This document shows positions 20,762-45,017 of a stretch of DNA of 64,000 nt, in pieces. The position numbers and the translations under genes were made by a program. The notes beneath the pieces were generated by a model, which saw nothing but the letters and a program-made list of their open reading frames with translations, did no database searches and was not told the origin of the DNA. Positions within the stretch are counted from its first letter, which is position 1. Every line of letters begins with the position of its first letter. Source of the DNA: Tabrizicola sp. (GTDB taxonomy: Bacteria; Pseudomonadota; Alphaproteobacteria; Rhodobacterales; Rhodobacteraceae); NCBI GenBank assembly GCA_025458105.1, contig JALOTD010000012.1:1-64000 (forward strand). Reading direction: 5' to 3'.

Positions 20762-20810
20762 GCCCGCCTGGTGCCCTTTGGCACTGAGGGCCCGTCTTGG
20801 GCCAAGTCAG

Positions 20811-23705: not shown

Positions 23706-23709
23706 AGTG

Positions 23710-25293: not shown

Positions 25294-25305
25294 TAGGAGA
25301 GTAAG

Positions 25306-26205
25306 ATGGAGAAGATTCAGTCTGCCATCGCAAAAGCACGTGCTGATCGGGCAGCCACGCGTCTGCACGATGACGTGCCAGCCGTGGAAACGCCAGTTCC
25401 AAAGCCGTCATATGGTCCCCCTGTACAGCATTCGACAAGGGTCGCATCGCGCATATTGACGACTTACCCAGATCAAGCCGTGGCTGCTGCGCTGACGGTG
25501 CGGTGGCGAGAGTTTCCGATCTTTGAGCCAGTGAAGGCGCACATGGCGCGGAACCATGTGGTAACGTTCACTGGCGCGCCAGACTCGGTCCATTTTGACG
25601 TGATGCGCACGCGGCTTTTGCAGCTGATGCGCGCAAACGGTTGGCGACGCGTAGCGATCACCTCACCTGGACCTTCCTGTGGAAAATCGACGCTGGCGCT
25701 CAATCTGGCCTTTTCATTCGGCAGACAGCCCAACTTGCGTACGCTTCTGCTTGAATTGGACCTGAGGCGCCCCTCACTGGCCCGGCTGCTTGGGTTGCGC
25801 AAACAGCACCATTTCTCTCGGGTGCTCGATGGCTCAGAGCAACTGCATGACAACGCCGTCCGTATCGGGACGAATCTGGCCATCGCGACACAGTCTGGCG
25901 CAGAGCCGCAGTCTGCAGAAATGTTGCACAGTCCAGCTGCGGGCACAACGCTGGATGCAATCGAAGCCAGCTATGACCCTGCGATCATGCTTTGCGACCT
26001 GCCGCCGGTCTTTGCCAGTGATGATGCGATGGCCATTATGGGCCATATGGACGCAGCGCTCATCGTTGCGGGCGCGGAAATGACCACCATCAGGGAAATC
26101 GACCGCTGCGAACGCGAAGTTGCTGATCAAACCAACGTTATCGGCGTCGTTCTGAACAAGAGCCGTTACCAAGAAAAAGACTTTGGCTATGACTATGGCG
26201 GTTGA
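25306..26205 (+). CDS. CpsD/CapB-like tyrosine autokinase
   Basis: 299 residues. P-loop ATPase of the BY-kinase/ParA type: Walker A SPGPSCGKSTLALN, Walker A' LLLELDLRRPSLARLL and a Walker B-like ILCDLPPV segment (here IMLCDLPPVFASDD). The C-terminal tail YQEKDFGYDYGG holds three tyrosines that could be the autophosphorylation cluster, shorter than in many homologues. It normally acts with the Wzz-like protein in the inner membrane to cycle EPS polymerisation. It starts 13 bp after the Wzz-like stop, preceded by TAGGAGAG. Confidence 0.88.
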   Translation: MEKIQSAIAKARADRAATRLHDDVPAVETPVPKPSYGPPVQHSTRVASRILTTYPDQAVAAALTVRWREFPIFEPVKAHMARNHVVTFTGAPDSVHFDVMRTRLLQLMRANGWRRVAITSPGPSCGKSTLALNLAFSFGRQPNLRTLLLELDLRRPSLARLLGLRKQHHFSRVLDGSEQLHDNAVRIGTNLAIATQSGAEPQSAEMLHSPAAGTTLDAIEASYDPAIMLCDLPPVFASDDAMAIMGHMDAALIVAGAEMTTIREIDRCEREVADQTNVIGVVLNKSRYQEKDFGYDYGG

Positions 26206-26357: not shown

Positions 26358-27314
26358 TCAATACCCGGCTAACCAATCGCGCCGATGCCTCCAGACATCT
26401 GCCCAATACGCTGCTCTGGCTCGCTTCTCTTCGCTCGAGGCCCACGCGAAGGGTCGCGATGCAGCAAAACGAACTGCCCCCCAAAGCCACATCAACCCGA
26501 CCCCGAACGGTACCTGCCAAGCGGGCCAGTGATCCCGAATCAGGGTCATGCGTGCCTTTGCGACCATCTGACGCTTTCGAGCAAGATTGCTACTTGAGGC
26601 GCCTTCCAGATGAACAATTTCAGCCTCGGGCGTGACCATTGGCTGAAAGCCCATCCGATGCGCGCGTAAGCACAAATCTGCCTCTTCGCCGTACATAAAG
26701 TACCGCAGGTCGAACCCTCCAAGTCTTGCCCAAATTTCGCGGCGGACAAGGAAGAAACAGCCCGAAACAATGTCCACTCGGCGTACGGTATCACGACCCC
26801 ACCCACCCATCGCCTCGGTGTTGAAGATGCTTGACCGCGGAAAGGCCGCCGTAAGTCCCACGGACATACAGAAAGCACTCCAGAGTGTGATGCGCTGCCA
26901 ACAGGATGCTAAGTTTAGACTTCCATCGGAAAAAACTGTGCGCCCACCCCAAATTCCGGCCTGCGGCTGCGCTTGTGCAAACTCTACAAGATTGTCCACT
27001 GCGCCAGGGTGGCATTCCGTATCAGGATTCAGCAGCAACAGGAATTCCGTCGTCGCGCAGGCAGCAACCATATTGTTCGCACGTGCAAAACCCAAGTTCT
27101 CGACCGAGCGAACTAGTTCGACCTGTGGAAAGTCCTGCGCCACTGCATCTGCCGACCCGTCGTTCGAAGCATTGTCGAACACGACCACTTTGAACTGCGT
27201 CACAAGGGTTGTTGAAAACAGGGTGCGTAACGCTGCCAGCGTCAGATCACGCGTGTTGTAGCTTACAATGATTACGGTAAGCTGTGGCTCAGCTAACTGA
27301 ACAGGCTTAGACAT
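26358..27314 (-). CDS. GT2-family glycosyltransferase (rhamnosyltransferase-like)
   Basis: 318 residues from MSKPVQLAEPQLTVIIVSYN (ATG at 27314; frame open to 27335). GT-A motifs: VIIVSYNTRDLTLAAL, FDNASNDGSADAV, the DxD-like region LLLLNPDTECHPGAVDNLV, and the acceptor-side segment YFMYGEEADLCLRAHRMG. A C-terminal hydrophobic stretch (FGVGLMWLWGAVRF) may tether it to the membrane. It transfers a sugar to the lipid-linked EPS repeat; donor and acceptor are unknown. It is convergent with the kinase gene. Confidence 0.88.
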   Translation of the reverse strand: MSKPVQLAEPQLTVIIVSYNTRDLTLAALRTLFSTTLVTQFKVVVFDNASNDGSADAVAQDFPQVELVRSVENLGFARANNMVAACATTEFLLLLNPDTECHPGAVDNLVEFAQAQPQAGIWGGRTVFSDGSLNLASCWQRITLWSAFCMSVGLTAAFPRSSIFNTEAMGGWGRDTVRRVDIVSGCFFLVRREIWARLGGFDLRYFMYGEEADLCLRAHRMGFQPMVTPEAEIVHLEGASSSNLARKRQMVAKARMTLIRDHWPAWQVPFGVGLMWLWGAVRFAASRPFAWASSEEKRARAAYWADVWRHRRDWLAGY

Positions 27315-27683
27315 CTGACTACCTCTGCAAGACAACTGGCTTGACGCTCTGCCAAGTGAAGGTGGCTTGAAGACTCAGCCCATCCAAGAGGCGCACAGCT
27401 ACAAAAAACCAGAAGTGGGGCCTTAAGATACATGCCATCATACCTTTACCACACCAAACTGCCTGTGGACAATCGACAAGCTCCAGTTGCGCCTATAGCC
27501 ACTCGTGATGAGATGTAGCAGCTGTCCCTCCAGTAACGGAATTGAAGAGTTACCAAGGGTCGAACGACGAACGGTTTCAGCTGTGATTGCATCAGTCGAC
27601 TTTCGCCACCCAGTTGCAAGAAACTCCGCCGACAGCCTCGCTATTTTTGGCCCGGACAGACGCTGATTCTCCATCGATGTAGA

Positions 27684-28073
27684 TTAAAAGGCATACTTGT
27701 CAGTTCTGCAAATGCAACCGGACTTGAAACCTTGGAAAAGCACACGTAACCCCAGCCGCCGATAGTCGCTTACATCCGAGGCTTCGCGGCTGCTGATGTC
27801 AGATGCCCGGCACAAATCCTTGAGAGGTCCATAAGCCAAACGTTTGCCAGAATCGTTCCGCAATGAGAAGAAGAGATTGCGACGGACGAGCAGGAAGCTT
27901 GAAGTGTCGAAACCGGTTATATGGGCAATAGTAGGGTACAGAAGCAACGCGCTTGCGCTGTGAGGCGTACTTAAACCACCATCCATACTGCCGCTCATCT
28001 TTTGGAGTGCTGGCTGAAGGCTGCATTTCAATAGAATCGATTTTCTTCTGATCCTGGGACGCCCGAAGTACAA
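27684..28073 (-). pseudogene. Possible remnant of a GT2 glycosyltransferase
   Basis: The frame reads ITGFDTSSFLLVRRNLFFSL and later ASDVSDYRRLGLRVLF, which loosely match the GT2 pattern of G-x-x-x-VRR followed by EDVDLxxRLRxxGYRVLF. The N-terminal nucleotide-sugar domain is missing, and no good start site is present. This is a hand comparison; the fragment may be coincidental. Confidence 0.25.
27982..27999 (+). repeat. Short dispersed repeat, copy 1 (copy 2 at 28821-28838)
   Basis: TCCATACTGCCGCTCATC here and TCCACACTGCCGCTCATC at 28821-28838 match at 17 of 18 bases in the same orientation, 839 bp apart. It may be a trace of a duplicated or mobile sequence in this gene-poor stretch. Confidence 0.5.
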
Positions 28074-29404
28074 TTAGGAAGAACAGGGCTCGATGATGCA
28101 GTCAGCTAATCCGATTTAGTTTCTCTTGCTTTCTATTTTTTTCAGTTTCTTCGGTATTTATTTCGATATTTTTTGGAAAGGAAAAGGCAGAGATTTAAGG
28201 TTTTCGGTTTGTGATATCTCCAGAAGGCAGACTTGTTTTCAGTTTGGCAGAAGATTGTCGCCTTTGCTTTACCAAGGATCAATCTAGCTCTCCTGATACG
28301 ATGCAGGCTCTTCTCTTGAATTGAAAAGACGACATGGCGCTGTTCTGCATCGAAGCGTAAAGAACCGCTTCATAGCTCAGCAGTATTATTGATCGCATTT
28401 TCACTACGTCGAACGATCTTCTTTGTCCTCATACCCTCATTTTAGACTGGAGGATGAGCGTGGAGTTCCGAAAAAGATCAAAACAAAATATCCGAGAATG
28501 CACCCCACGCGGATTGCCGCGCCCTTGCCGCTCCACCTATGGTCACTTTGTTCGTTTGCCGATATGGGTTCTTCCGGTCCGCGTCCAGACTTTGCAACCA
28601 TTTGGCCTGACGAGAGGGCAACATTTTACTGCATTCTGCTGCCTGTCGAATTGACAGACTTTGGCCAGGTCGGCCTTCTGAAACGTTGTGCAACCCCCAA
28701 TACATGGGCGAGCGTTTGTGCTGCGACCCGCACAGACAGAACACAAAGGTCGCAGACTGCGCAGTTCTGTAGCTTGACCTCGATTGCTCTGGCTTTCGCC
28801 AAGTGCCTGTCAGAATTTGGTCCACACTGCCGCTCATCCCCAGATGTTAAAGGGGCGAACAAACTCGTGCTTTTACCCTCAGCGGCCTGCGCGGCCTGTT
28901 GCGCGTCATGTGAACTGGAATGCCAACAAAGCGGCGAACCACGCTTGGCCAAGAGCTTAGATGTCGCTGGACATCGTGGCTTTTGGGCATCCGTAAGGTC
29001 TAAGCCTGAGACGCAAGTTATCTATTTCGGTCGAATGAGCAGGAAATCCTGCTGGTAAGGCCGAGGTGACGAACGGTAGCTAGTCGCTTGCCGGAAAGAG
29101 AATCAGCATTCTTGCTTTGCACCGACAGTATGGGGCCATTTTGTCGGCGACTATCTAGGCCGCCCGGTCTGGAGGACAGTTTGCAAGAAGAACTCCGATC
29201 TGCACAGCTTTTCGGCTACCTGAGGCCGCAATCGACCCTAGGTAGAAATCGAAATCAATACTTTCAACTTTTGGATGCACGATGCGGCAGCGCAGACGAC
29301 GCCTAGCAACAATCTTGAACGTCTGAGAGTTAAACTGGGCCCCAAAACACCATCTTGACCCGCTATGGATCAAGTGTGATGAGACTGGAGGATAACCGCC
29401 AATT

Positions 29405-29449
29405 ATGTTCATGATTGTTTTGCATGAGGGATGGTCGCACGCCCAATGA
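29405..29449 (+). CDS. Possible 14-codon leader ORF coupled to the megasynthase
   Basis: ATG at 29405, 13 bases after GGAGG (29387-29391), encodes MFMIVLHEGWSHAQ and stops at 29447-29449. The stop overlaps the ATGATG start region of the NRPS-PKS gene, which has no good ribosome binding site of its own. It could provide translational coupling. The evidence is only positional. Confidence 0.35.
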   Translation: MFMIVLHEGWSHAQ

Positions 29450-32400
29450 TGAGAACCGTGGACACTGAGTTTGGTTCGATTGTCACCGCTTTCGCCGCAA
29501 TGGCTGCGAGATATGGTGATTGTGACGCTGTCTTGGCCGACCAGACTGTCCATTCCTATGCTTGGTTGGACGCCCGGTCCCTGGCTATCGCGAATCAACT
29601 TCAAAAGCGGGGAGTCAAGCGTGGTTCGGTAGTGGGTATCGGTTCAGCGCCCGGGGCGGCAGCAATCGTCGCAACCTTGGCGGTGTTGCGAACCGGGGCA
29701 GCATATCTGCCACTACCCATGGGCTACCCGCCGGAGCGGCTTCAATCGATGCTGGAGAAGTCTGGCGTAAAGCAAGTTCTAGGTACCTGGTCCGGAGCTA
29801 CTGAGACGATCGAAACCCTGGATTTGGAAGCTCTTGCAGAGCAACCCGCCGCGGATGGCGATTCCCTGCCAGAGCCTGAGCCGGATGACCCCGCGTATGT
29901 GATGTTCACCTCGGGATCCACTGGCCAGCCGAAGGCTGTGGTCGTACCGCACCGGGCAGTGTTGCGTCTGGTTGTCGGACAAGACTTCATGCGCCTTGGT
30001 CCCGGAACGCGCATCCTGCAAGCCGCGCCGATGGCGTTCGACGCTGCGACGCTCGAAATCTGGGGGGCGCTCCTGACGGGTGGCACATTGGTCCTTCCGC
30101 CGGACGGTCCGCCCAGCCTGCGTGCATTGGGCAGTACTCTTCGGACTCACAAGATTGACACCCTTTGGTTGACAGCCGGGTTATTCCACGCGATGGCCGA
30201 CGAACGGCCAGAAGACTTTGCCCCACTGACCCAGCTCTTAACTGGCGGTGATGTCGTCTCGCCCGCAAGGGTGAAGCGTGTGCTGGAGGCATGCCCCGGC
30301 CTTAAGATCATTAATGGCTACGGGCCGACCGAGAACACCACCTTTACCTGCACACACACGATCACGACCGAGGACCTGGCCAGTGGACGCCCGTTGCCGA
30401 TCGGTCGGCCAATTTCTGGGACTGAGGTTTACGTGCTGGACGACGCGCTGAGGCCCGTGGCCGACGGCGCTGAAGGCGAACTCTGTGCTGCTGGAGCGGG
30501 CCTGGCGCTGGGGTACCTTGGCAGAGAAGACCTGACCGCCGAGCGATTTGTCGACGCACCCTTTTCCCCTGGACTGCGGCTCTATCGTACCGGTGATTTG
30601 GTGCGCTGGTCGGGCAACGTGCTGGAATTCCTGGGGCGGATCGACACCCAGGTCAAATTGCGTGGCTATCGGGTGGAGCTGTCGGCTATCGAGGCGGCGA
30701 TGGAAGCCTGCGTGGGCGTGCGGCAAGCGGTTGCCGTTGCCAGAGACGGCAGCGATGGGGCCGACCGGATGCTGGTGGCATACCATGTCGGTGGCGATGA
30801 ACGGACACTGGCTGCACATATTGCCGCGACACTGCCCGACTATTCCCGCCCGGCCCGTCTGGTGCCTTTGGATGAAATACCCCTTAACGCAAACGGTAAG
30901 TATGACCGCCGCGCCCTGGCTTTGCGTCCTCTCCCCACCAAGCCAGCCATACCAAATCATGTTACGACCTTGGGCAGCAGCATTGCTGCACAGATGGATG
31001 CCGAACTTACAAGTCTTCTGGGGGTCGACGGGCCCTTACCGCAGGACACCAGTTTCTTCGACCTTGGCGCATCGTCGCTGGTGGTCGTGCGCCTGCATGA
31101 ACGAATGCAGCGCTTGCTGGGCCGCGATTTCCCTGTGACCGACTTCTTCCGTCACGGGACGATCAAAAGCCTGTCGCGCCATCTGTCCGGTGCCACGACA
31201 CAGCCCGAACCTAGCCGCGCGGTGGCCAATGCGGCCCCGATTGCGATTGTCGCCATGGCAGGCCGCTTTCCTGGCGCACCCTCGGTCGAAGCGTTCTGGC
31301 AGGCGCTGACCGAGCGGCGCGAACTGATCTCGCATTTCACCCAAGACGAGCTTGATCGTCCGCTGGCCGAAGGGGAAGTACCTGCACGCGGAGTTCTCGA
31401 CAGATCAGAATGGTTCGACTCGCAACATTTCGGCCTGACCCCGCGCGAAGCCGATCTGCTGGACCCCCAGCACCGGGTTTTGCTGGAACTGGCGCAAGAG
31501 GTTCTGGACGCTGCCGGCCATGACCCCGAGCGTTTTCCTGGCCGTATCGGCATTTTTGCCGGGGCCAGCCAAAGCTCGTATCTCTTGAACAACATTGCCA
31601 GCGCTCCAGGGGCTGCCCGCGCGATTGCGGCGGGTTATCCGGTCGGTGACGCTGCAACAACCTTTGGCAATGACAAGGATTTCCTTTGCACCCGCATTGC
31701 CTACAAGCTGAACCTGCGCGGCCCGGCAGTGACGGTGCAGGCAGCCTGCGCGACTTCTCTTTTGGCCGTGGCCCAGGGCTGCGAGGCGTTGCGGTCGGGG
31801 GCTGCCGACATGGTTCTGGCAGGCGGGGTGTCAGTAACCTTCCCGGCACGGCGCGGATATGCCTATGCGGCCGAGGGCATGGCGTCGGCAGACGGACATT
31901 GCCGGACCTTCGACGCCGATGCGACCGGTACAGTTTTTGGCGATGGCGCCGGCCTTGTCGCCCTTCGACGACTAGATGAAGCGCTGGCCGATGGCGACCG
32001 GGTGATTGCCGTCATTCGCGGTTGGGCCGTAAACAATGATGGTGCCGACAAGGCGGGCTATGCCGCGCCCTCGGTTGCTGCCCAGTCTGCAGTGATCCAG
32101 GCGGCTCAGGCCTCGGCCGGAGTGACGCCGGACCAAATCGGCTATGTCGAGGCGCATGGGACCGGCACCGCACTGGGCGACCCGATCGAAGTGGCCGCCC
32201 TGGCCGAGGCCCTTGTCGGCGGCCAAGATATCTGGCTGGGCACGGCGAAGACCAATGTCGGGCATCTGGATATTGCCGCCGGTGTGACAGGCCTCATCAA
32301 GGCAGCGCTGACCGTTCAACATGGGAAAGCCACACCACTTCTGCATTTCCAAAGGCCGAATCCGCGGATCAACTTTGCCGCAACGCCGTTGCGCCCAGTT

Positions 32401-35400
32401 ACGGAACTGACCCCTTGGGGCGGCAAGGGCCGACGACTTGCGGGGGTTTCAGCCTTTGGCGTGGGCGGGACCAACGTCCATTTGATTCTGGAAGAAGCGC
32501 CGGAAACCAAGAGCCAACCCGCTCCCCACACAGGACGCGTTATAGTCCCGCTGTCAGCCTCAACCTCTGAAGCCTTGACTGCGCTGGGCACTGCGCTCTC
32601 CGGGTGGGCCGAAGCGCATCCCGACGCACAGATTTCAGAAGTCGCCGCCGCAATGGCCGCCCGCCGCCGCCACCGCTATCGCGCGGTTCTGGTGGCCGAC
32701 GGCATGGCAGAGCTGGCGATAGCGCCCCTTGCGCGGGGCCAGAGTGGGCCTGCAGCCCCGCTCACCTTCCTCTTCCCCGGTCAGGGCGCGCAACACCCGG
32801 GCATGGGAGCGGCCCTTTATGATACAGCACCCGCCTACCGCGCTGCTCTGGATCTGTGCACCGAAATCCTAAAGCCCGAACTTGGCCTGTCTCTGCGCGA
32901 TCTTCTGTATGATCGGGACCATCCGGCAATCGCTCAGCGGCTGCGGGCAACCTCTTTGGCTCAACCTGCCATCTTCGCCGTCAGCTATGCGCTGGCGCGG
33001 CAGTGGGAAGACTGGAGCATTCGCCCTGACCGTATGGCTGGCCATTCTGTCGGCGAACTTTCTGCGGCGACACTGGCCGGTGTATTCCGCCTCGAGGATG
33101 CCTTGCGCCTGGTTGCCCTGCGCGGCCGGTTGATGGACGACCTGCCAAGCGGGTCGATGCTGTCGGTCCGCGCGTCAGAAGAGGCGATCGCGCCCTACCT
33201 GGGTGGCGACATCGACCTCGCTGCCGTGAATGGTGGCACGGCCTGCGTTTTGGCCGGTCCGACCGAAGCCATCGCAGGTCTGGCTGAGCGGCTTCAGACC
33301 GAAGGCATCGTGACGCGCCAGCTGAATACCAGCCACGCTTTCCATTCGCAAATGATGGAACCGGCACTTGCGCCCTTCCATGCTGCGGTTGCGCAGGTCG
33401 CGCTGGCCGCCCCGTCCATTCCGATCATCAGTACGGTCACCGGCCAACCCCTGACCGCAGCCGAAGCGGTGGATCCCGGATACTGGTCGGCCCACATGCG
33501 ACGCCCAGTGCGCTTTTTTGGGGCGCTACAGCAGCTTTGGTCCGGGGGCCGCGGCCTGATGCTTGAGGTCGGGCCTGGCCGCACGCTGGCGACACTGGCC
33601 AATCAGGACCCTGCGCGCCGGACAGTGGCTCTGGCCAGCCTGCCTCATGCCGAAGCCGGCGACAATGCCGACCGAACGATGCGCGAGGCGTTTGGACTTT
33701 TGTGGGCAAATGGCCATTCAGTCGACTTCGCCAAGCTGCAGCCAATGGATCGCCGCGCCAGCGGATTGCCAAGCTACCCCTTCCAGCGCAAGCGCCATTG
33801 GGTTGAGCCTTGGAATGGTATCGTCGTCGATGCCGAAACACCGGCTGACGCGCCAGCATCTGTGGCCCCAGCGGAAGTCACCGCGGACACGGCCACAGCC
33901 GTGCGCGCCCTTCTGGCAGACCTGTCCGGTTACACCCCTGCCGATCTGCCGGGCGATGTGGGTTTCTTGGCCTTAGGGTTCGATTCCCTGATGCTGACCC
34001 AGGCGGCGCGAGAGATCTCACGTCGCTTCGGGCTGGACATCACGCTGCGAGAACTGATCGACGGTTATGGGAACATCAATGCGGTTGCCGCCCATATCGA
34101 TCAGAAAGGGCCCGCCAGAACCGCATTTTCTGCACCGCCTATCGCTGCACCGCCCGTGGCGGCCCCAGTCTCTGCTCCAACCACGCAGATCAACCGTGAA
34201 ACGCTGTCCATCACGCCGCGCCATCGCGACCATATCGACCGCCTTGTCGCCCGATTTACCGCTAAGACCGCGCGGTCCAAGGCGCTGACCGCACAGCACC
34301 GACCGCATTATGCCGACCCGAGGACGGCGTCAGGCTTTAACCGACTGTGGAAGGAGGCGGTCTACCAAATCGTCACCAACCGCTCCAAGGGCTCGCGCCT
34401 GATGGACGTCGACGGAAACGAATACATAGACATCCTGAACGGGTTTGGTCCGGGGTTTCTTGGCCACGGGGTGGCCCCCGTCAGCGACGCCGTGGCAAGG
34501 CAACTTGCGACCGGATTCGAAGTGGGGCCGCAATCGCAACTTGCGATGGAGGCGGCAGAACTGTTTTGCGCGCTGACCGGGGCCGAGCGGGCGAGTTTTG
34601 TCTGCACGGGGTCAGAGGCAGTGGCAGCAGCCATGCGCCTGGCCCGGACGGTCACAGGGCGTGACCGGATCGTTCTGTTTGCGCGTGACTATCATGGCAA
34701 CTTCGACGAGGTTCTGGTGCGGGCTGGCGGAACAGGTGCCACCTTTCCCATTGCCCCTGGTATCCCACGTGAGGCGGTGGGCAACGTCACCGTGCTGCCT
34801 TACGGCACGCCCGAAGCGCTGGACTACATCCGGTCGCAGGCGGGCAACCTGGCTGCAGTTCTGGTTGAACCCGTGCAAAGCCGCCGCCCCGAATTCCGCC
34901 CGGTCGAGTTCATCCGAGAACTGCGCAAGATCACCGAAACCCACGGCAGCCTATTGATCTTCGACGAGGTCGTGACCGGGTTCCGGATGGGACTACAGGG
35001 GGCGCAAGGACTTTACGGCGTCGAGGCCGATCTTGCCACCTATGGCAAGGTGGTCGGCGGAGGGATGCCGGTCGGGGTTGTGGCGGGCCGTGCGGCCTAT
35101 ATGGACACTTTCGACGGCGGTGCTTGGAACTTTGGCGACGATAGTTTCCCACAGGCGCCAGTGACCTTCTTTGCGGGCACCTTCGTGCGCCATCCGCTGA
35201 CCATGGCCGCGACCAAGGCAATGCTCGAACAGTTGCGGGACCTTCCGCCGCTGTTCTGGCAGTCGCTTGCGGCAAAGGGAGACCGTCTGGCAGGCCAGGT
35301 CGAACGCTGGTTCCGCGCGAACGACATGCCATTTGCAATCCCGCACTGCGGGTCGCTCATGTACCTTCGGATCGATGGCTCCGAACCTCTTGCGCCACTC

Positions 35401-38400
35401 ATCGGTACCCATTTGCGGGATCGCGGCGTGTTCATGCTTGAGGGCTTCCCCAGTTACATGACGGCGGCACATGACGACGAAGACATCGACCATGTCGTCG
35501 CCGCCATAAAGGATGCGGCTGAAGAGATGCGTGCCGATGGTCTGATCGGTCAGACCGAGGGACCGCCGCATGAGGCGCGCGTCACGGCCGCACCGCCGCG
35601 ATTGTCGCTACCGGATGGCGAACAGCGCATCCTGCGGATGATGTCCGCACCGGCTGGCCCGCTGGAACGGCCCAGCACCGAGGCGCAACGTGAGATCTGG
35701 TCGGCCGTCGCTTTGGACCCCTCGATTTCGACAGCATACAATGAAGGCGTGTCGCTGATCCTTGACGGGGCTATCGACAGCGCGGCGCTTGTCGCTGCGG
35801 TCCGTGCCACACTTGCCCGCCACGATGCGTTCCGGACGACCTTTACGCCCGATGGCTTGGGAATGCGCGTTGAACCGAAGAGACAATTCGACGTAGCGCT
35901 GCACGATCTGTCGGCATTGCCCCAGGCCGAACGGGACGCCGCGCTGGCCCAGCTTTTGCGCGATGAAGCTGAAACGCCTTTCGACCTGGAGCGCGGCCCC
36001 TTGGTTCGGTCCCGCCTGGTGACCGAAACGCCGACGCGCCATCGGCTGCTACTGACAGCCCATCACATCGTCTGTGACGGCTGGTCGATCGGTGTGGTGC
36101 TGACCGAGATCGCTGCACTTTACACTGGCCGAAATCTGCCGCCGCCACAGAGCATTCTGGACTTCGCCCGCGCCGAAGATGCGTGGAGCGTTACCTCCGA
36201 CGCAGCGAAAAGCCGCGCGTTCTGGACCGAAACCCTGGCTGGCCTTCCCCCGATATTGGACCTGCCCACCGATAAACCGCGCCAGGCTGATCGGGAACGT
36301 CACGGCACCAGGCTGGACATTTCCCTGGGGCCGGATCTGACCAAGCGCCTGCGCGCCCTTGCGCGGACGGTGGGGGTGACGCTGCCGGCGGTCCTTTTGG
36401 CGGGTTGGCGTGTCCAGATCGCCCGAGCCGCAGGTGTCTCTGACCTTGCCCTTGGTGTGCCCGCAGCCGGGCAACCGGCGCGCGATTTGCCCGGTGTGGT
36501 GGGCCATTGCATCAACCTGATGCCAGTGCGCAGCCGGGTCGATTGGCAAGCAGGCTTTGCCGTTCAAGCCAAGGCCGAGCAATCGGCGCTGCTTGCAGCG
36601 CAAGAACACCAGTTCGTCACCTTTGGTGCCTTGCTGCGCGATTTGCGTCTGCCCCGCGATCCAGCCCGGGTGCCACTTGTGCCCGTCATTTTCAATGTCG
36701 ACCCGCCTCTGGACCCCACAACCCTGGGCTTCGTCGGGGTGACAGCCCAGCTTCAAACCATTCCGCGCAAACAAGAGCATTTCGAGTTCGCACTGAACAT
36801 CGCCCCCACGGGTGACGGGGACATGGCGCTGGAATTGTCCTTCGCATCGGACCTTTATGACCCCGAGACCGCACAGGCCCAGCTTGCGGGCTTTGTCGCG
36901 GTGCTGGAGGCAGGCTGTGCCGACCCGAACGCGCCCCTATCGGTCGCGACCGCGGTTCCGGCTGCCTGGCTGGCGCCCGGCATCGGTGCTGAAGGTCCAA
37001 TCCCAGAAGGCGAAACGATCTGGACGCTGTTCGAGGCGCAGGCCAGCGCCAACGGTGATGGCCTTGCCCTTATCGACGGTGCGCGGCGCATGACCGCCGC
37101 CGAGCTGAAGACCGCTGCCGAGGCGCTAGCCGCGCGCATGGCCGCCCAGGGTGTTGGCCCTGGCAGTCGTGTCGGGCTTTGCCTGGATCGGTCGGTGCGC
37201 GCGGTCGTTGCCATGTTCGCGATCCTTCGACTTGGCGCTGCCTGGGTTCCGCTTGACCCGACAAACCCGGACGCACGCCTGCGCTTCATTGCCGAAAACA
37301 GCGGTGCCGCGCTGATCCTGACCACGGCCGCTCTGGCCGAGCGCATCGGCCTTCCGGCCGGTCGGGTGCTGGACCTGGATGCCAAAAATGGTGCGACCGC
37401 CCCCCTACCGCCGGTGCCGCGCGATGACCAGGCGATTGCCTATGTTGCCTACACCTCGGGATCAACCGGCCAGCCCAAGGGTGTCATGGGGCCGCACCGG
37501 CCTATGCTGAACCGCTTTGCCTGGATGTGGCGCAGCTATCCGTTTGAGCCGGGCGAAGTCCTGGTGCAAAAGACCGCGCTGTCCTTTGTGGATTCGATCT
37601 GGGAAATCTTCGGTCCCCTGCTGGCCGGGGTGCCCTTGGTTGTGATCCCGACCGAAACCGTCCGTGACCCCGCCGCGTTCATCCAGAGTTTGGCTGGGCA
37701 CTCTGCCACCCGGCTTGTTCTGGTGCCCTCGCTTTTGGACGCAATGCTTGAAACGGTTCCCGACCTAGGTGCGGCGCTGCCCAAGCTGCGGCTGGTCTTC
37801 GTATCGGGGGAGCGGCTGACCGGGCGGCTGGCGCGACGTTTTGCCAAAGCGGCCCCGCATATGCGTCTGATCAACCTTTATGGATCGTCCGAGGTTGCGG
37901 CCGATGTGACGGTTCAAGAGGTGGATGGCGACTTTGGCGAGTCCGTCCCGATCGGGTGGCCTTTGGACAATACGCGCCTGTATGTTCTGGATGACCTGCG
38001 CCGACCCGTCCAGCCGGGCCGTCCGGGCCGGCTGTTTGTGGGCGGCGCGGCGGTGGCTGCGGGGTATCATGGGCGCCCTGACCTGACGGCGGAACGGTTT
38101 GTGCCCGATCCCTTCGATGCAACTCGGGGCGCGGTGATGTTCGACACGGGCGACCGGGTGCGGTTCGACGTTGAAGGCAGGCTGCATATCCTGGGCCGAA
38201 CCGATGCCCAGATCGCCCTGCGCGGCTATCGGATCGAGCCGGGCGAGGTCGAGGCGGCACTGTGCAAACGCCCGGATGTCGGTGAAGCGGTGTTGGTCGC
38301 TGCCGGACCAGACGATGACAAAACGCTCGTTGCCTACATCACGGCGCGCAGCAAAACCGCGGCCCCCGATCCGATGGCACTGCGCAAAATCCTTGCCGGT

Positions 38401-39555
38401 CAGTTGCCCGGATATATGGTGCCGTCGCGCATCATTCTTCTGCCGGACATGCCGCTGAATCCCAACGGCAAGATCGACCGGCCCGCCCTGGCGGCCCTGC
38501 CAATGCCTCAGACAGAAGTCAGTGTATCGGAAGAACCGCCCGCGACCCCACTGGAGGCAGACCTGGCGGACCTCTGGGCGCGGCTTATGGGTCTGCCCTC
38601 GGTCGGGCGGCACGACAATTTCTTCGAATTGGGTGGCCATTCACTTCTGGCGGTTAAGGTCATGGCCCATCTCCGGCGCACCCGAGGGTTGGAACTTCCG
38701 ATTGCCAGCCTGCTCGCCCACCCTACCGTCGCCCAGCTTGCCACCCATGTCGACTCGCAGACTGAGTTGCGTACTGAAGATTGGGACAGCCTCGCCGCTC
38801 TAAGCGCGGGACCGAAAGATTCTGATGCGCGCCCGCTGTTTGTCGTCGGCGGGGTCGGCGGCAACGTCAACAATCTTTATGATCTGGGTCGTGCATTTGA
38901 CACAAAGCGCCCGCTGGTCGGTTTGCAGACCCGGGGTGTCGCTGGCCACACGCCACGCAACAGTCTTGTCGAGATGGCCGCCGATCATGTCCGCGATATC
39001 CGCCGCCATCAACCGCATGGGCCGTATTTGCTTGCTGGGTACTCGGGTGGGGCGTTCACCGCCCATGAAATCGCCCGTCAGCTGGAAGAAGCGGACGAGA
39101 CAGTAGCCTTCCTCGGTATCCTTGACATGTACGCCCCTGGCCATCCCCCGCCCCGTGGGCCCAGAGCACCATTCTGGAAGGGTGGCCCGGCCGGGTTCTG
39201 GAAACGGGCATGGCCCAAGCTGCATGCGGTCCTGACGCCCTCGCCCGTGCTGCGCCTGATCGAGCCATTTGCCCTTGATCACAGTCGACAGGTGCGTCTG
39301 GTCCGACACTGGATGAAAGCGGCGCAAAGCCACCGCCCGGGACGGATCAGCGCACCTGTCTGCCTTTATCTTTCGAAGGGAGATACACCCGATCCGGCCA
39401 TTGCGGCGGCTATCACACAGGGCTGGGAGAAGCTGGCAAATGGTGGGGTCAAGGTGCGATGGGTCGGTGGTGATCATCTGAGTATGCTACACGCCCCGCA
39501 TATCGAAGGGGTCGCCGCTGCGCTGGAAGACGACCTGAAGGACGCGTCTCAATGA
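29446..39555 (+). CDS. Hybrid NRPS-PKS megasynthase A-PCP-KS-AT-ACP-AMT-C-A-PCP-TE
   Basis: 3369 residues counted from the ATG at 29446 (29431 and 29449 are alternatives). Domains: A1 about 10-505 (FTSGSTGQPKA, D199 in FDAATLE, hand-read code near DALWLGGTFK, valine-like); PCP1 (S544 in LGASSL); KS 597-1030 (C768, H904, H940); AT 1105-1390 (S1201 in GHSVG, HAFH at 1297-1300, malonyl type); ACP (S1514 in LGFDSL); class-III aminotransferase AMT 1613-2040 (PLP Lys K1868 in ATYGKVVGGG); condensation domain 2075-2500 (HHIVCDG, H2207, D2211); A2 2525-3015 (V2715, D2716, W2719; code near the beta-alanine code VDWVISLADK); PCP2 (S3066); TE 3129-3365 (S3200 in GYSGG, H3344). No KR, DH, ER or epimerase. 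All core residues are present, so it should be active. Expected logic: aminoacyl starter, one malonyl extension, transamination of the beta-keto group, condensation with a beta-amino acid, release. Its stop overlaps the PPTase start. Confidence 0.95.
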   Translation: MMRTVDTEFGSIVTAFAAMAARYGDCDAVLADQTVHSYAWLDARSLAIANQLQKRGVKRGSVVGIGSAPGAAAIVATLAVLRTGAAYLPLPMGYPPERLQSMLEKSGVKQVLGTWSGATETIETLDLEALAEQPAADGDSLPEPEPDDPAYVMFTSGSTGQPKAVVVPHRAVLRLVVGQDFMRLGPGTRILQAAPMAFDAATLEIWGALLTGGTLVLPPDGPPSLRALGSTLRTHKIDTLWLTAGLFHAMADERPEDFAPLTQLLTGGDVVSPARVKRVLEACPGLKIINGYGPTENTTFTCTHTITTEDLASGRPLPIGRPISGTEVYVLDDALRPVADGAEGELCAAGAGLALGYLGREDLTAERFVDAPFSPGLRLYRTGDLVRWSGNVLEFLGRIDTQVKLRGYRVELSAIEAAMEACVGVRQAVAVARDGSDGADRMLVAYHVGGDERTLAAHIAATLPDYSRPARLVPLDEIPLNANGKYDRRALALRPLPTKPAIPNHVTTLGSSIAAQMDAELTSLLGVDGPLPQDTSFFDLGASSLVVVRLHERMQRLLGRDFPVTDFFRHGTIKSLSRHLSGATTQPEPSRAVANAAPIAIVAMAGRFPGAPSVEAFWQALTERRELISHFTQDELDRPLAEGEVPARGVLDRSEWFDSQHFGLTPREADLLDPQHRVLLELAQEVLDAAGHDPERFPGRIGIFAGASQSSYLLNNIASAPGAARAIAAGYPVGDAATTFGNDKDFLCTRIAYKLNLRGPAVTVQAACATSLLAVAQGCEALRSGAADMVLAGGVSVTFPARRGYAYAAEGMASADGHCRTFDADATGTVFGDGAGLVALRRLDEALADGDRVIAVIRGWAVNNDGADKAGYAAPSVAAQSAVIQAAQASAGVTPDQIGYVEAHGTGTALGDPIEVAALAEALVGGQDIWLGTAKTNVGHLDIAAGVTGLIKAALTVQHGKATPLLHFQRPNPRINFAATPLRPVTELTPWGGKGRRLAGVSAFGVGGTNVHLILEEAPETKSQPAPHTGRVIVPLSASTSEALTALGTALSGWAEAHPDAQISEVAAAMAARRRHRYRAVLVADGMAELAIAPLARGQSGPAAPLTFLFPGQGAQHPGMGAALYDTAPAYRAALDLCTEILKPELGLSLRDLLYDRDHPAIAQRLRATSLAQPAIFAVSYALARQWEDWSIRPDRMAGHSVGELSAATLAGVFRLEDALRLVALRGRLMDDLPSGSMLSVRASEEAIAPYLGGDIDLAAVNGGTACVLAGPTEAIAGLAERLQTEGIVTRQLNTSHAFHSQMMEPALAPFHAAVAQVALAAPSIPIISTVTGQPLTAAEAVDPGYWSAHMRRPVRFFGALQQLWSGGRGLMLEVGPGRTLATLANQDPARRTVALASLPHAEAGDNADRTMREAFGLLWANGHSVDFAKLQPMDRRASGLPSYPFQRKRHWVEPWNGIVVDAETPADAPASVAPAEVTADTATAVRALLADLSGYTPADLPGDVGFLALGFDSLMLTQAAREISRRFGLDITLRELIDGYGNINAVAAHIDQKGPARTAFSAPPIAAPPVAAPVSAPTTQINRETLSITPRHRDHIDRLVARFTAKTARSKALTAQHRPHYADPRTASGFNRLWKEAVYQIVTNRSKGSRLMDVDGNEYIDILNGFGPGFLGHGVAPVSDAVARQLATGFEVGPQSQLAMEAAELFCALTGAERASFVCTGSEAVAAAMRLARTVTGRDRIVLFARDYHGNFDEVLVRAGGTGATFPIAPGIPREAVGNVTVLPYGTPEALDYIRSQAGNLAAVLVEPVQSRRPEFRPVEFIRELRKITETHGSLLIFDEVVTGFRMGLQGAQGLYGVEADLATYGKVVGGGMPVGVVAGRAAYMDTFDGGAWNFGDDSFPQAPVTFFAGTFVRHPLTMAATKAMLEQLRDLPPLFWQSLAAKGDRLAGQVERWFRANDMPFAIPHCGSLMYLRIDGSEPLAPLIGTHLRDRGVFMLEGFPSYMTAAHDDEDIDHVVAAIKDAAEEMRADGLIGQTEGPPHEARVTAAPPRLSLPDGEQRILRMMSAPAGPLERPSTEAQREIWSAVALDPSISTAYNEGVSLILDGAIDSAALVAAVRATLARHDAFRTTFTPDGLGMRVEPKRQFDVALHDLSALPQAERDAALAQLLRDEAETPFDLERGPLVRSRLVTETPTRHRLLLTAHHIVCDGWSIGVVLTEIAALYTGRNLPPPQSILDFARAEDAWSVTSDAAKSRAFWTETLAGLPPILDLPTDKPRQADRERHGTRLDISLGPDLTKRLRALARTVGVTLPAVLLAGWRVQIARAAGVSDLALGVPAAGQPARDLPGVVGHCINLMPVRSRVDWQAGFAVQAKAEQSALLAAQEHQFVTFGALLRDLRLPRDPARVPLVPVIFNVDPPLDPTTLGFVGVTAQLQTIPRKQEHFEFALNIAPTGDGDMALELSFASDLYDPETAQAQLAGFVAVLEAGCADPNAPLSVATAVPAAWLAPGIGAEGPIPEGETIWTLFEAQASANGDGLALIDGARRMTAAELKTAAEALAARMAAQGVGPGSRVGLCLDRSVRAVVAMFAILRLGAAWVPLDPTNPDARLRFIAENSGAALILTTAALAERIGLPAGRVLDLDAKNGATAPLPPVPRDDQAIAYVAYTSGSTGQPKGVMGPHRPMLNRFAWMWRSYPFEPGEVLVQKTALSFVDSIWEIFGPLLAGVPLVVIPTETVRDPAAFIQSLAGHSATRLVLVPSLLDAMLETVPDLGAALPKLRLVFVSGERLTGRLARRFAKAAPHMRLINLYGSSEVAADVTVQEVDGDFGESVPIGWPLDNTRLYVLDDLRRPVQPGRPGRLFVGGAAVAAGYHGRPDLTAERFVPDPFDATRGAVMFDTGDRVRFDVEGRLHILGRTDAQIALRGYRIEPGEVEAALCKRPDVGEAVLVAAGPDDDKTLVAYITARSKTAAPDPMALRKILAGQLPGYMVPSRIILLPDMPLNPNGKIDRPALAALPMPQTEVSVSEEPPATPLEADLADLWARLMGLPSVGRHDNFFELGGHSLLAVKVMAHLRRTRGLELPIASLLAHPTVAQLATHVDSQTELRTEDWDSLAALSAGPKDSDARPLFVVGGVGGNVNNLYDLGRAFDTKRPLVGLQTRGVAGHTPRNSLVEMAADHVRDIRRHQPHGPYLLAGYSGGAFTAHEIARQLEEADETVAFLGILDMYAPGHPPPRGPRAPFWKGGPAGFWKRAWPKLHAVLTPSPVLRLIEPFALDHSRQVRLVRHWMKAAQSHRPGRISAPVCLYLSKGDTPDPAIAAAITQGWEKLANGGVKVRWVGGDHLSMLHAPHIEGVAAALEDDLKDASQ

Positions 39556-40229
39556 CCCTCAGCTTTCGTCATGCGCTTCCAACGCTTCCGCCCGGGCTTG
39601 CGCTGCGCATCTGTCGTCTGGACGATGACGGCGATATCGCGTTGCATCAGGCCGCATCTACTTTGGCCAAAGTTGAACTTGACCGAGCGGCAGCGTTTAA
39701 CTTTGATCGTGACCGAAACCGGTTCGTGCGCGCCCGTGGCTTTCTGCGGCGCGAGGTATCGGCCGTCCTGGGATACCATCCGGAAAAACTGGCCATTCGG
39801 ATCGGACCGCATGGAAAACCCTTTGTGGACGGTCATTCTCTGGGGTTCAATCTAAGCCATAGTGCCGGTTTAGCGGTCCTGGCACTGAATGCCGATGGGC
39901 CGGTTGGCGTTGACGTGGAGTCGCTTGCGCTGGTGCGAAACACGGCTGATCTGTGCGAGACCTGTCTTACCTTCGCCGAAAGAAACGCCCTTAAGGCGGC
40001 GCCAGACGCAAGCCGTGACTCACGTTTCCTGGCCTTTTGGACCGCAAAAGAGGCCGCGGTGAAACTGACGGGAACGGGCTGGAGTGTAGAGCCCAAGACC
40101 GTCGAATTGAGCCTGGTCGGAGGTCTTCCAATGGCAGTACAGACCCCACCTGCTCGCCTGATCTCCATCCCGGTTCCGGGACATCTGTGCTATATGGCTC
40201 TGCCCGCCAACGAAGAGGCGTCAAGGTGA
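39552..40229 (+). CDS. Sfp-type 4'-phosphopantetheinyl transferase
   Basis: 225 residues. Motifs of the Sfp/AcpT family: GKPFVDGHSLGFNLSHSAG, VGVDVESL (about residue 119, Mg-binding Asp) and FWTAKEAAVKLTGTG (about 162, with the KEA core). It attaches phosphopantetheine from CoA to the Ser of the three carrier domains of the upstream synthase. It overlaps the synthase stop (ATGA) and the methyltransferase start (GTGA), so all three are translated as one unit. A dedicated PPTase supports the view that the synthase is functional. Confidence 0.92.
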   Translation: MTLSFRHALPTLPPGLALRICRLDDDGDIALHQAASTLAKVELDRAAAFNFDRDRNRFVRARGFLRREVSAVLGYHPEKLAIRIGPHGKPFVDGHSLGFNLSHSAGLAVLALNADGPVGVDVESLALVRNTADLCETCLTFAERNALKAAPDASRDSRFLAFWTAKEAAVKLTGTGWSVEPKTVELSLVGGLPMAVQTPPARLISIPVPGHLCYMALPANEEASR

Positions 40230-41086
40230 GACAAGCGATACGCAACTTTGGCCGTGTGATCTACGGCACAGCTTTGGAGCGCCTGCGACCCGATCTTGTC
40301 CGCAAGCTGGACAGCGATATCTCCGGGCAGAAATCTCCGGGTGACGTCCAGGCAAAGGCCGCAATTCTTTATGCGCGCCTTCGACGTGCCAGGCTTTTTG
40401 GCAATCGGGCTGCGGCGGAAAGCGCGCTGCGGGCCTGGTGGCAGGCCGAGACGGCCGACTACTTCTATGATGGATATCGGGCTAGGTTCGACAAGTGGTT
40501 CTTCGGGCCGCACCAGATGCTGATTGAGAAGCTGTGCGACCATGTCGCTTCCGCCGGATTGACCGAGCTTATCGAGATCGGTTGCGGCGATGGCCGCGCA
40601 CTAGCCCACTGCGCCAAGCGCATGCCCGGTCTCAAGCGCCTGGTCGGGCTGGACGTCAACGCGGATATCATCGCCCGCAATCGCGCAACGCCCTTCGGCG
40701 ACCCGCGCATAGGCTTTGAGGCCGGAGAGGCTGGTGCCTGGATCGCAGCACGACCGGCGCCGGGCCGGGTCCTGCTCAGCTATGGAGGCGTGATGGAATA
40801 CCTTGCGCCGGAAACCTTGGCGGCTCTTCTGTCTGGGGTCGCCACCCATCGCCCGGCCGCTGTTGCACTGTGCGAGCCGGTTGCCCCGGAACATGATCTT
40901 GACCGCGAAACCGGGGCGATCATGTTCGGATATGAAAGTTCATTTTCTCATAACCATGCGTATCAATTGCAGGCGGCAGGGTTCAGCATTCTTTGGCAGC
41001 AAGAACTGCTATTGGATGGTATCCGCTGGATGATGATTGTCGCAGAAGCAGGAAAGCAGGATGCGGTCACTTCTTCAAAAGCATGA
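40226..41086 (+). CDS. SAM-dependent methyltransferase in the megasynthase operon
   Basis: 286 residues from the GTG at 40226, which overlaps the PPTase stop as GTGA; the longer open frame from 40037 lies inside the PPTase gene. The Rossmann motif LIEIGCGDGRALAHCA and the acidic segment VGLDVNADII identify a class-I methyltransferase. The N-terminal about 110 residues are charged and helical, without a named domain. The late segment GVMEYLAPETLAALL is common in this superfamily. It probably N- or O-methylates the synthase product; the acceptor is not predictable. Confidence 0.75.
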   Translation: MRQAIRNFGRVIYGTALERLRPDLVRKLDSDISGQKSPGDVQAKAAILYARLRRARLFGNRAAAESALRAWWQAETADYFYDGYRARFDKWFFGPHQMLIEKLCDHVASAGLTELIEIGCGDGRALAHCAKRMPGLKRLVGLDVNADIIARNRATPFGDPRIGFEAGEAGAWIAARPAPGRVLLSYGGVMEYLAPETLAALLSGVATHRPAAVALCEPVAPEHDLDRETGAIMFGYESSFSHNHAYQLQAAGFSILWQQELLLDGIRWMMIVAEAGKQDAVTSSKA

Positions 41087-41855
41087 AATCTGGGTCTTCT
41101 TTGCCCTGATCATCGTCGCAAACACTGTCTTCATTTTTGCGATTCACGAGGGTCACCTACCTTTCAAGCTCTACAATACCGGGCGCTTTCTGCTGCTCGG
41201 CGCTGTTCTGGTTGCTGTTGTTGCCTTGTCACGGGGCTTCGGCGGCGTGACGTCACTTCTGGCCCCGCTGACCCGGTGGCGCGTGTCACCGGCATGGTAC
41301 CTTTTTGCTGCGCTTTGGGCCGTCTCCTTGTGTAGCGTCTTCGTCATTGTCCATGCGGCAGTGACCGGGTCCTGGCCAGAGGCGTTCGCGCCGGGTCTTG
41401 AGACGATGCTCCAACCATCAGTGTTCCGGACCGTCCTTATTGGTGCCCTTATTGGAGAGATCGTTTGGGTCTCATACGCCTTTGCGCGTCTGGCACCGCA
41501 ACTTGGAACCATCGTAACGGCTCTCGTCGTAGGTACCGTCTGGACCGGTTGGTGGGTTCCGATCGCAATAATGAATGTCGGCGTGATCCCTGACTTGCCA
41601 CTGGTGGCATTGTGGATCAACATGATCGGCATCGCCCTGGTTTGCGGGATCGTCTACGGGCACACCCGCAGTGGTCTTCTGGTTCTTCTTTTGCAGTTCG
41701 GTGTGAACTCGTCGATCGTCGTGTTCCCAGTTTCGCCGTCCACAGGTGGCATATCGGTCTATTGGGCTTTTTCCATAGCATACCTTGCAGCAGCCTTGTT
41801 GCTTCTGATGCTGTGGCCCCCACGGCCAACCCCCGCTTTTGGCGAAAAGCACTAG
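41061..41855 (+). CDS. CPBP-like integral membrane protein with degenerate active site
   Basis: 264 residues from MRSLLQKHEIWVFF (ATG at 41061, overlapping the methyltransferase by 26 bp). About seven or eight membrane helices. The order of segments fits the CPBP (Abi) intramembrane protease family: GEIVWVSYAFARL at the EExxxR position and VGTVWTGWWVPIAI at the F-x-x-x-H position, with N in QFGVNSSIV. The second Glu and the motif-2 His are replaced, so protease activity is doubtful. It could be an immunity, transport or regulatory membrane protein for the operon product. This assignment rests on hand alignment. Confidence 0.5.
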   Translation: MRSLLQKHEIWVFFALIIVANTVFIFAIHEGHLPFKLYNTGRFLLLGAVLVAVVALSRGFGGVTSLLAPLTRWRVSPAWYLFAALWAVSLCSVFVIVHAAVTGSWPEAFAPGLETMLQPSVFRTVLIGALIGEIVWVSYAFARLAPQLGTIVTALVVGTVWTGWWVPIAIMNVGVIPDLPLVALWINMIGIALVCGIVYGHTRSGLLVLLLQFGVNSSIVVFPVSPSTGGISVYWAFSIAYLAAALLLLMLWPPRPTPAFGEKH

Positions 41856-42039: not shown

Positions 42040-42822
42040 ATGAAGGCCTTTTGCATCAATCTTGACCGGCGACAAGACCGCCGTGACCGTATGTGGTCAG
42101 AGTTTCAGAGATTGGGGGTCGAGGTTGAGCGTGTAGCCGCCGTTGATGGCAGCCTTCCCGACTTCACCGCAATCACGGCTTCTCTCAAGCCTGGCGCAAG
42201 CGGGCTGCGTCTCGGACCTGGGGCCTACGCCTGTTTCCAAAGTCACCGGCTGTGCTGGCAGAAATTGCTGGAAAGCGGCGATCCGCATGCGATGGTTCTG
42301 GAGGACGATCTGATCATCGCCGAAGATTTCGCCCGTTTCCTGACCGATGGCTGGGTTCCCACAGATGCAGATGTCGTCAAACTGGAAACCCGCGAAGTTC
42401 GAGTGCAGCTGGATCGCCGGATCGTTCCCCTCAATCGTGGGCGTTATCTGGCACAGCTGCGGTCATCGCATTTCGGAACTGGCTGCTATGTGATCTCTGC
42501 CGTGGCAGCCGAGCGTCTGCACCGTCAGACTGAAACCGTTCTGGACGCCATCGACGAGGTGATCTTTGATGCGCGAAGCCCGGTTTTCAGGATGACCAGA
42601 ATCTATCAGATGGTGCCAGCACCAGTGATCCAGGGCGACCAGCGCCCCGGATCAAGCGTCAGCGCCGCCTGGGCGGCGACTTCGATCAACAACCGCTTTG
42701 GGCCTGGCGAGACGGCGGGCTCTGACGAGCTTTCGCTACCTGGACGCATTTTGCGGCGTCTGAAGGCCGAGGCTCGTGCAGCTTTGCACGGGACCCGCTA
42801 TACGTTTGTGGGTCACGGTTAA
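42040..42822 (+). CDS. Glycosyltransferase family 25 protein (LPS/EPS type)
   Basis: 260 residues. Begins with MKAFCINLDRRQDRRDRM, the GT25 signature, followed by RVAAVDGSLPDF, GAYACFQSHRLCWQKLLES, VLEDDLIIAEDF (DxD-like) and GTGCYVISAVAAERLH. GT25 enzymes add galactose or similar sugars to LPS, or modify other acceptors. It is on the same strand as the megasynthase operon but separated by 184 bp, so it may be part of either the natural-product operon or the EPS genes. The C-terminal 40 residues are basic. Confidence 0.85.
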   Translation: MKAFCINLDRRQDRRDRMWSEFQRLGVEVERVAAVDGSLPDFTAITASLKPGASGLRLGPGAYACFQSHRLCWQKLLESGDPHAMVLEDDLIIAEDFARFLTDGWVPTDADVVKLETREVRVQLDRRIVPLNRGRYLAQLRSSHFGTGCYVISAVAAERLHRQTETVLDAIDEVIFDARSPVFRMTRIYQMVPAPVIQGDQRPGSSVSAAWAATSINNRFGPGETAGSDELSLPGRILRRLKAEARAALHGTRYTFVGHG

Positions 42823-42871
42823 ACCCGCCGCCCGCCGCATATCAAAGCCCTTGACCCACGAGGCAACAACG

Positions 42872-43993: not shown

Positions 43994-44105
43994 GCCATTC
44001 GTTTGGCGCATTTGCGGAATCGCGTGCACTTTCATTCGTCCAAGTCAGATCCCCGATCGAACCCTTCACCAATGACCATGAACACGCAAAACCTTGAGTA
44101 TCTCA

Positions 44106-45005: not shown

Positions 45006-45017
45006 AGCATGTAGGCC

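Follow-up and report, generated by a model that had tools for sequence, protein, structure and literature searches.

An amino-acid-primed NRPS-PKS gene with an embedded aminotransferase, set among polysaccharide genes in a Tabrizicola genome

In a 64,000-nucleotide stretch of Tabrizicola sp. DNA (GenBank assembly GCA_025458105.1, contig JALOTD010000012.1, positions 1 to 64,000; hereafter the window), a hybrid nonribosomal peptide synthetase-polyketide synthase (NRPS-PKS) gene opens an operon of overlapping genes that lies between polysaccharide genes. The best explanation, to which we assign a probability of roughly 0.6, is an accessory operon whose synthetase is primed with an amino acid, contains an aminotransferase (AMT) domain and would make a product of the beta,gamma-diamino acyl-beta-alanine type.

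A ten-domain synthetase in one reading frame

The synthetase gene is a single intact open reading frame (ORF) of 3374 aa without an internal stop. Its domain string, A-T-KS-AT-T-AMT-C-A-T-TE, places ten domains on one polypeptide (A, adenylation; T, carrier; KS, ketosynthase; AT, acyltransferase; C, condensation; TE, thioesterase):

29431-39555 (+): hybrid NRPS-PKS, 3374 aa, from the ORF, Pfam matches and motifs
29479-30930 (+): A1, code DALWLGGTF, valine-like; Pfam and alignment to a GrsA segment
30973-31215 (+): first carrier domain, LGASSL; Pfam and motif
31234-34110 (+): KS, AT (HAFH) and second carrier domain (LGFDSL); Pfam and motifs
34231-35640 (+): AMT, class III (Aminotran_3), GKVVGGG; Pfam, motif and match to MycA 6kfm
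35653-36960 (+): condensation domain, HHIVCDG; Pfam and motif
37018-38520 (+): A2, code VDWVFSLAD, beta-alanine-like; Pfam and alignment to a GrsA segment
38533-39552 (+): third carrier domain and thioesterase with the Ser nucleophile in GYSGG; Pfam and motif

The Pfam matches, all above cut-off, comprise two AMP-binding domains, three PP-binding stretches, Condensation, the N- and C-terminal parts of ketoacyl-synt, Acyl_transf_1, Aminotran_3 and Thioesterase. The sampled active-site motifs are present throughout, with the carrier serines in LGASSL, LGFDSL and LGGHSL, and with QAACATSL in the KS, GHSVGE and HAFH in the AT, GKVVGGG in the AMT, HHIVCDG in the C domain and GYSGG in the TE. A first-pass annotation, made from the sequence alone, had described this domain order, its completeness on one polypeptide and its visible catalytic residues, and the ORF, Pfam and motif results bear this out. 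The start codon that it chose, 29446, is indeed an in-frame ATG, but the ORF opens already at 29431, and either start is possible. A malonyl-type AT agrees with the HAFH motif, which marks that type. A frameshift or pseudogene is ruled out by the unbroken ORF and the intact motifs. Chance or an assembly error does not explain the gene either, because the identical ten-domain single ORF is found in Ruegeria, Amylibacter, Aliiroseovarius, an alphaproteobacterial metagenome-assembled genome (MAG) and a Thiotrichales MAG.

The AMT is a class III enzyme placed between a carrier and the C domain, and its pyridoxal phosphate-lysine motif is intact. Its best match among solved structures is MycA (6kfm), with an E value of 3.6e-113 over query residues 2-445.

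The A-domain codes were extracted by alignment to a GrsA segment. The A1 code resembles the valine code and the A2 code the beta-alanine code, which would fit a valine-like and a beta-alanine-like substrate, respectively. The Asp at position 235 of A1 indicates an amino-acid A domain and not a fatty acyl-AMP ligase, in line with the amino-acid loading proposed in the first-pass annotation. A table in PMC3547906 gives DALFIGGTFK with valine as the predicted substrate.

Operon partners and the proposed pathway

The operon spans 29431 to 41855, with the synthetase as its first gene and three further genes, each overlapping the one before it. This context was left out at first pass.

39552-40229 (+): Sfp-type phosphopantetheinyl transferase (PPTase), overlapping the synthetase stop by 4 bases
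40226-41086 (+): S-adenosylmethionine (SAM) methyltransferase, motif VEIGCGDG, overlapping the PPTase stop by 4 bases
41061-41855 (+): polytopic membrane protein, overlapping the methyltransferase gene by 26 bases

The methyltransferase has a SAM-enzyme fold, and its nearest PDB entries are mixed (METTL6, ChlM, NNMT and others) and point to no substrate class. For the membrane protein, a CAAX-protease identity was rejected: the weak Rce1/CAAX-like match lies below cut-off, the EExxxR motif is absent from a five-row alignment, and the structure model is poor (predicted local distance difference test score, 54.8).

Upstream of the operon lies a 2-kb spacer of low GC content (27336-29430, 50% GC) with two small ORFs without a Pfam match. 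A search of this spacer for RNA elements gave none at E values up to 0.1, and promoter and terminator scans stayed at chance level.

In the pathway that we propose, A1 would load a valine-like amino acid, KS and AT would extend it by one malonyl-derived C2 unit, and the AMT would convert the beta-ketone to an amine, yielding a beta,gamma-diamino acyl chain. The second module, C-A2-T, would attach a beta-alanine-like unit, and the Ser-type TE would release the chain. The PPTase would arm the synthetase carriers, and the methyltransferase probably methylates the chain or the product. The AMT step follows the example of MycA as described in PMC3870968 and PMC3547906; in the former, MycA is reported to transfer a glutamine-derived amine onto a carrier-bound beta-ketothioester. 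The product would be a small cationic pseudo-tripeptide, and if the codes hold, its linear unmethylated form is predicted to be 3,4-diamino-5-methylhexanoyl-beta-alanine (C10H21N3O3, 231.158). Valine, beta-alanine and this formula had all been given at first pass; the codes agree with them, yet both substrates and formula are predictions from those codes.

Relatives of the synthetase

Close AMTs occur in 21 of 394 genomes of the family (E values up to 1e-100), in 20/398 of the phylum and in 26/390 of the order (both at E values up to 1e-90), as counted in three overlapping samples to which the genome of the window belongs. This distribution rules out a single-strain oddity. One scan of viral contigs, made with a viral origin in mind, gave no relative. 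The scan of genome contigs with the window AMT returned 21 loci, and of 50 plasmid records that hold a close AMT, 20 were picked by hand for inspection. Loci are cited below by our working identifiers (G and L numbers).

In a tree of 74 AMT rows, rooted on BamA (L140) as the single iturin-type row, the window falls into clade W (12 rows, support 99), with clade E (34 rows) alongside. The union of the two has a support of 89 and is not starred in the tree; judging from these AMT sequences, clade E is the probable sister of clade W. Two cyanobacterial rows lie outside E+W, and L143, whose AMT has 259 aa, was excluded.

The domain order of the window synthetase recurs as a single ORF in nine more clade W loci: L009 (Ruegeria), L051 (Aliiroseovarius), L011, L013, L014, L015, G144, G839 (under which L010 is counted) and G120 (likewise for L017). 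These relatives had been missed at first pass. The same order is also found in G196, yet this locus falls outside clade W. In L012, the synthetase is broken by the contig end and a single A domain is visible. The TE of L015 was missed by blastp and phmmer and that of L013 was found only weakly (25%), while GYSFG is present in both. The A1 code follows DA[LF]WLGGTF in half of the clade (6/12: the window, L051, G839, L011, L013 and L015). According to the marker scan, the 12 clade W loci include eight with the methyltransferase, nine with the PPTase and five with the membrane protein. Shortly downstream of the Ruegeria synthetase operon, L009 encodes a polyketide-type protein with ketoreductase, dehydratase, carrier and TE domains (17725-21411).

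Clade E synthetases usually have a carrier as their last domain, with a C-T-TE part on a separate protein encoded close by. The TE of these proteins was assigned from Pfam for L052, L053 and L132, the three tested, and from alignment for the others. Cys replaces Ser at the TE nucleophile in 32/32 aligned clade E C-T-TE proteins (including L130, L132, L133, L053, L134-L137 and related G loci; G711 and L016 are outside this set), and 20 of the 32 also lack the second His of the C-domain motif HHxxxDG. An A domain with the glycine-type DILQ code is found in 31/34 clade E loci, whereas A1 is widely variable. In 13 of the 14 loci with a GINT1-like glycosyltransferase gene, this gene directly adjoins the C-T-TE gene and runs in the same direction, even where the two together are reversed with respect to the synthetase; the GINT1-like assignment is from Pfam for L053 and from similarity to the L053 protein elsewhere. 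Decorating a polysaccharide with peptides would call for such an arrangement, with peptide release beside a glycosyltransferase. In the window, the TE is in cis with Ser in GYSGG, the A2 code is not DILQ, and neither a C-T-TE gene nor a GINT1 match is present. The window is therefore a relative, not a member, of the clade E form, since it is without the separate Cys-type C-T-TE protein, the DILQ A domain and the GINT1-like gene.

The methyltransferases also differ in family. All four tested from clade E or Variovorax match the NCBIfam model TIGR04325 (L132 13874-14665, L130 30004-30819, L133 137-1003 and L129 26581-28259), while neither the window methyltransferase nor three other clade W ones tested match it. 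A homologue of the TIGR04325 type is present in 23/34 clade E loci in the marker scan.

The polysaccharide setting of the window

The first-pass annotation missed the surroundings of the operon, which has polysaccharide genes on both sides:

10456-11880 (+): Wzy_C/O-antigen-ligase-like protein, 31.1 bits against a cut-off of 31.7
20811-21458 (-): polysaccharide export protein (Poly_export, SLBB), above cut-off
21689-22378 (-): sugar transferase (Bac_transf, PF02397), with no second one found in the 90%-complete assembly
22716-26205 (+): XrtA-type ATPase, Wzz-type chain-length protein and tyrosine autokinase-like protein; XrtA-type models below NCBIfam cut-offs, Pfam Wzz just below cut-off
26358-27335 (-): glycosyltransferase family 2 (GT2), left of the operon
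42040-46901 (mixed strands): GT25 (+), GT4 (-), GT2 (-) and asparagine synthase-like amidotransferase (-), right of the operon

The position of the operon between these genes makes a cell-envelope role likely, with the product being either a substituent on a polysaccharide or a small molecule inherited together with the polysaccharide genes. The polysaccharide genes have a GC content at third codon positions (GC3) of 0.57-0.67 and the three operon genes after the synthetase one of 0.59-0.65, compared with 0.70-0.78 for four genes located at 47.1-52.6 kb, a pattern that fits an island with its right border near 47 kb. Among the five listed same-genus genomes, three have a Wzz-like protein 42-43% identical to that of the window and two are without one at E values up to 1e-20.

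Linkage to polysaccharide genes

In the window's family, Bac_transf lies within 20 kb in 10/18 usable AMT-hybrid loci (window included; G022, G091 and G139, on contigs <6 kb, were dropped), compared with 1/23 other condensation-domain loci, taken from 198 sampled genomes of the family (Fisher p 3.3e-4). The number expected from gene density is 0.46/18 (P 2e-12). Leaving out the window and three controls on contigs <8 kb, the counts are 9/17 and 1/20 (p 0.002).

A marker scan, which called a locus linked when two or more of the four marker classes (sugar transferase, flippase, Wzz/kinase and export) were present, divides the AMT loci by clade. Linked loci number 31/34 in clade E, 2/12 in clade W, 1/29 among other AMT loci and 1/22 among control NRPS loci (clade E against controls, p 3e-11). 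The scan markers were drawn from clade E loci, clade W loci and the window, which biases this count in their favour over the controls (the PF02397 count is free of this bias), the control stretches are shorter, and clade E was delimited on a tree where its linkage was already visible. On stretches of at least 35 kb, the counts are 26/27, 2/6, 0/11 and 1/11, in the same order, and 19/20 against 1/11 controls when clade E is restricted to genome-search hits without hand-picking. G469, on a 3.3-kb contig, was left out of the scans, and c_G015C20 is counted among the 23 controls for Bac_transf and not among the 22 of the marker scan. The unlinked clade E rows are L016, G757 (contig end) and G346. 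Among the control NRPS loci, only G126:C6 (near 230219) has a sugar-transferase and Wzz/kinase gene close by.

The clade E gene content is retained across several gene orders, at AMT identities down to 48% and in 20 groups at 80%. Polysaccharide genes stand on both sides in 24/37 loci tested (the 34 of clade E, the window, L051 and L009). The linkage of clade E is in part inherited, and an independent-pairs test offered only two pairs and thus no power. Taken together, the counts make a strong case for a polysaccharide link in clade E, whereas for the window's clade the link is only suggestive.

Possible roles of the product

Several observations weigh against the overall interpretation. Clade W is not distinguishable from the controls on stretches of at least 35 kb (p 0.51), and the family-wide linkage comes mostly from clade E. 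Bac_transf lies within 20 kb in only 4/12 clade W loci (the window, L051, L009 and L012) and within 36 kb in 6/12 (with G120 and G839 added); it is absent from the same contig in L011, L013, L014, L015, G144 and G388, the L014 contig being only 20.7 kb long. In the window, the marker scan found no flippase, and the GC3 of the synthetase, 0.687, is closer to the right flank than is the GC3 of its neighbours. The product varies within clade W, because A2 differs between members: it is beta-alanine-like in four of the 12 (the window, G839, L011 and G120), valine-like in four (L051, L009, L013 and L015) and of another kind in L014, G144 and G388. The domain order, the intact motifs, the gene overlaps and the neighbourhood are directly observed; the substrates, the chemistry (by analogy with MycA), the methylation and any role are inferred. 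Since clade W does not exceed the controls on long stretches, the odds of a polysaccharide decoration in the window are lowered and those of a free molecule or a chance neighbourhood are raised.

A free small molecule, secreted or intracellular, that acts as a signal, inhibitor or metal ligand and whose genes share a genomic island with the polysaccharide genes comes close to an even chance without reaching it. The trait is accessory, with no close AMT in any of the five same-genus genomes, and L011, L013, L014, L015 and G144, with no polysaccharide genes in reach, keep the synthetase and in some cases the PPTase or methyltransferase. A vicinal diamine can chelate copper, and the AMT hybrids of Variovorax sp. 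RA8 (L129, plasmid 3) and Spirosoma linguale (L131, pSLIN02) adjoin copper or multicopper oxidase, copper P-type ATPase and cupredoxin genes, but these two loci belong to a different AMT branch. A further point against a free molecule is that the flank ORFs scanned in L009, L011, L013, L014 and G144 include no transporter family (two L011 ORFs have no family at all), although the window itself has an ATP-binding cassette exporter-like gene at 13743, 14 kb from the operon.

Attachment of the product to an exopolysaccharide appears unlikely for the window. Here, the releasing domain or an adjoining glycosyltransferase or acyltransferase would transfer the diamino-acyl peptide onto a lipid-linked repeat unit, at an amino or hydroxyl group, before the unit is exported and polymerised. 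The clade E evidence points this way, namely, its linkage compared with controls and other AMT loci, the gene content kept through rearrangement, the GINT1-like gene beside a Cys-type C-T-TE gene, and the variable A1 combined with the DILQ A domain, and so do the polysaccharide genes on either side of the window operon. However, the clade E linkage may stem from a few inherited events, and the window, in a clade that is not above the controls on long stretches, has a Ser-type TE and none of the C-T-TE gene, GINT1 match or, by marker scan, flippase.

Less probable still is a chance neighbourhood, with the islands of this group gathering polysaccharide and NRPS genes independently: the partial linkage of clade W and the GC content of the synthetase, which is higher than that of its neighbours here and in 5/5 other loci compared, would fit it, but the rarity of linkage among other condensation-domain loci and the gene density expectation both speak against it.

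More broadly, we tentatively propose, as a possibility that we hold to be doubtful, a family of NRPS-PKS lines that build short diamino-acid peptides to decorate exopolysaccharides, of which clade E would be the clear case and the window a sister form ending in beta-alanine within an XrtA-like locus. If true, modular peptide/polyketide synthesis and surface-polysaccharide assembly would be joined in one pathway. With a functional link, assembly-line enzymes would make surface-sugar substituents, and a first residue that varies by lineage could alter charge, adhesion and recognition by phages or predators. Even without such a link, the operon would offer a small complete system (synthetase, PPTase and methyltransferase) for beta,gamma-diamino acid formation by an embedded aminotransferase, and its relatives would supply naturally varied starters, second residues and modes of release.

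Comparison with known systems

A narrow full-text literature search, covering neither subscription papers nor MIBiG or antiSMASH, gave no characterised product of such a line among the matches listed, nor any account of an NRPS-PKS line tied to a polysaccharide locus. Colibactin-like hybrids are described for Pseudovibrio (PMC5563371), and the word polysaccharide does not occur in that text.

The polysaccharide locus of the window shares its Bac_transf, Poly_export, Wzz-like, autokinase-like, XrtA-type ATPase and amidotransferase genes with XrtA-like exopolysaccharide loci. It differs from them in that every XrtA-type NCBIfam match is below the curated cut-off and the NRPS-PKS operon sits in the middle of the locus. 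Compared with a Wzx/Wzy-type locus, Bac_transf and Poly_export are above cut-off, the Wzz-like protein is recognised by below-cut-off matches, and Wzy_C narrowly misses its cut-off.

The iturin family (MycA, ItuA and BamA) shares with the window synthetase a class III AMT that follows the KS and is flanked by an acyl carrier and a C domain, and the BamA AMT is 42.8% identical to that of the window. The first-pass annotation had named iturin-type lipopeptides among the known AMT hybrids, and the mycosubtilin enzyme MycA is the closest solved AMT. The loading differs: iturin-family lines load a fatty acid and continue into a long peptide, whereas the window synthetase takes an amino-acid starter through an A domain, carries its AT in cis and adds a single further residue before its terminal TE.

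Proteins of the McyE/NdaF type, with the order KS-AT-ACP-AMT-C-A-PCP (ACP and PCP, acyl and peptidyl carrier protein), are represented by examples from Planktothrix and a Nostoc plasmid and share the KS-AT-(T)-AMT-C-A-T core with the window. Their AMTs are 42-44% identical to that of the window and lie outside E+W on the tree, and their starter differs.

The nearest precedents are orphan hybrids of the order A-CP-KS-AT-CP-PLP1 in Pedobacter heparinus, Thiorhodococcus drewsii and Salinisphaera shabanensis, listed with products that are only predicted in Table 2 of PMC3870968 (2013). They share with the window an amino-acid-primed ketide extension followed by an embedded aminotransferase of the glutamate-1-semialdehyde aminotransferase (GSA) type. 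The amino-acid start, set apart from known AMT hybrids in the first-pass annotation, was already tabulated for AMT hybrids in 2013, while the ten-domain single gene ending in a TE is absent from the 15 Aminotran_3 rows of that table. Judged by its domain order, the window gene appears to be a ten-domain variant of these amino-acid-primed AMT hybrids.

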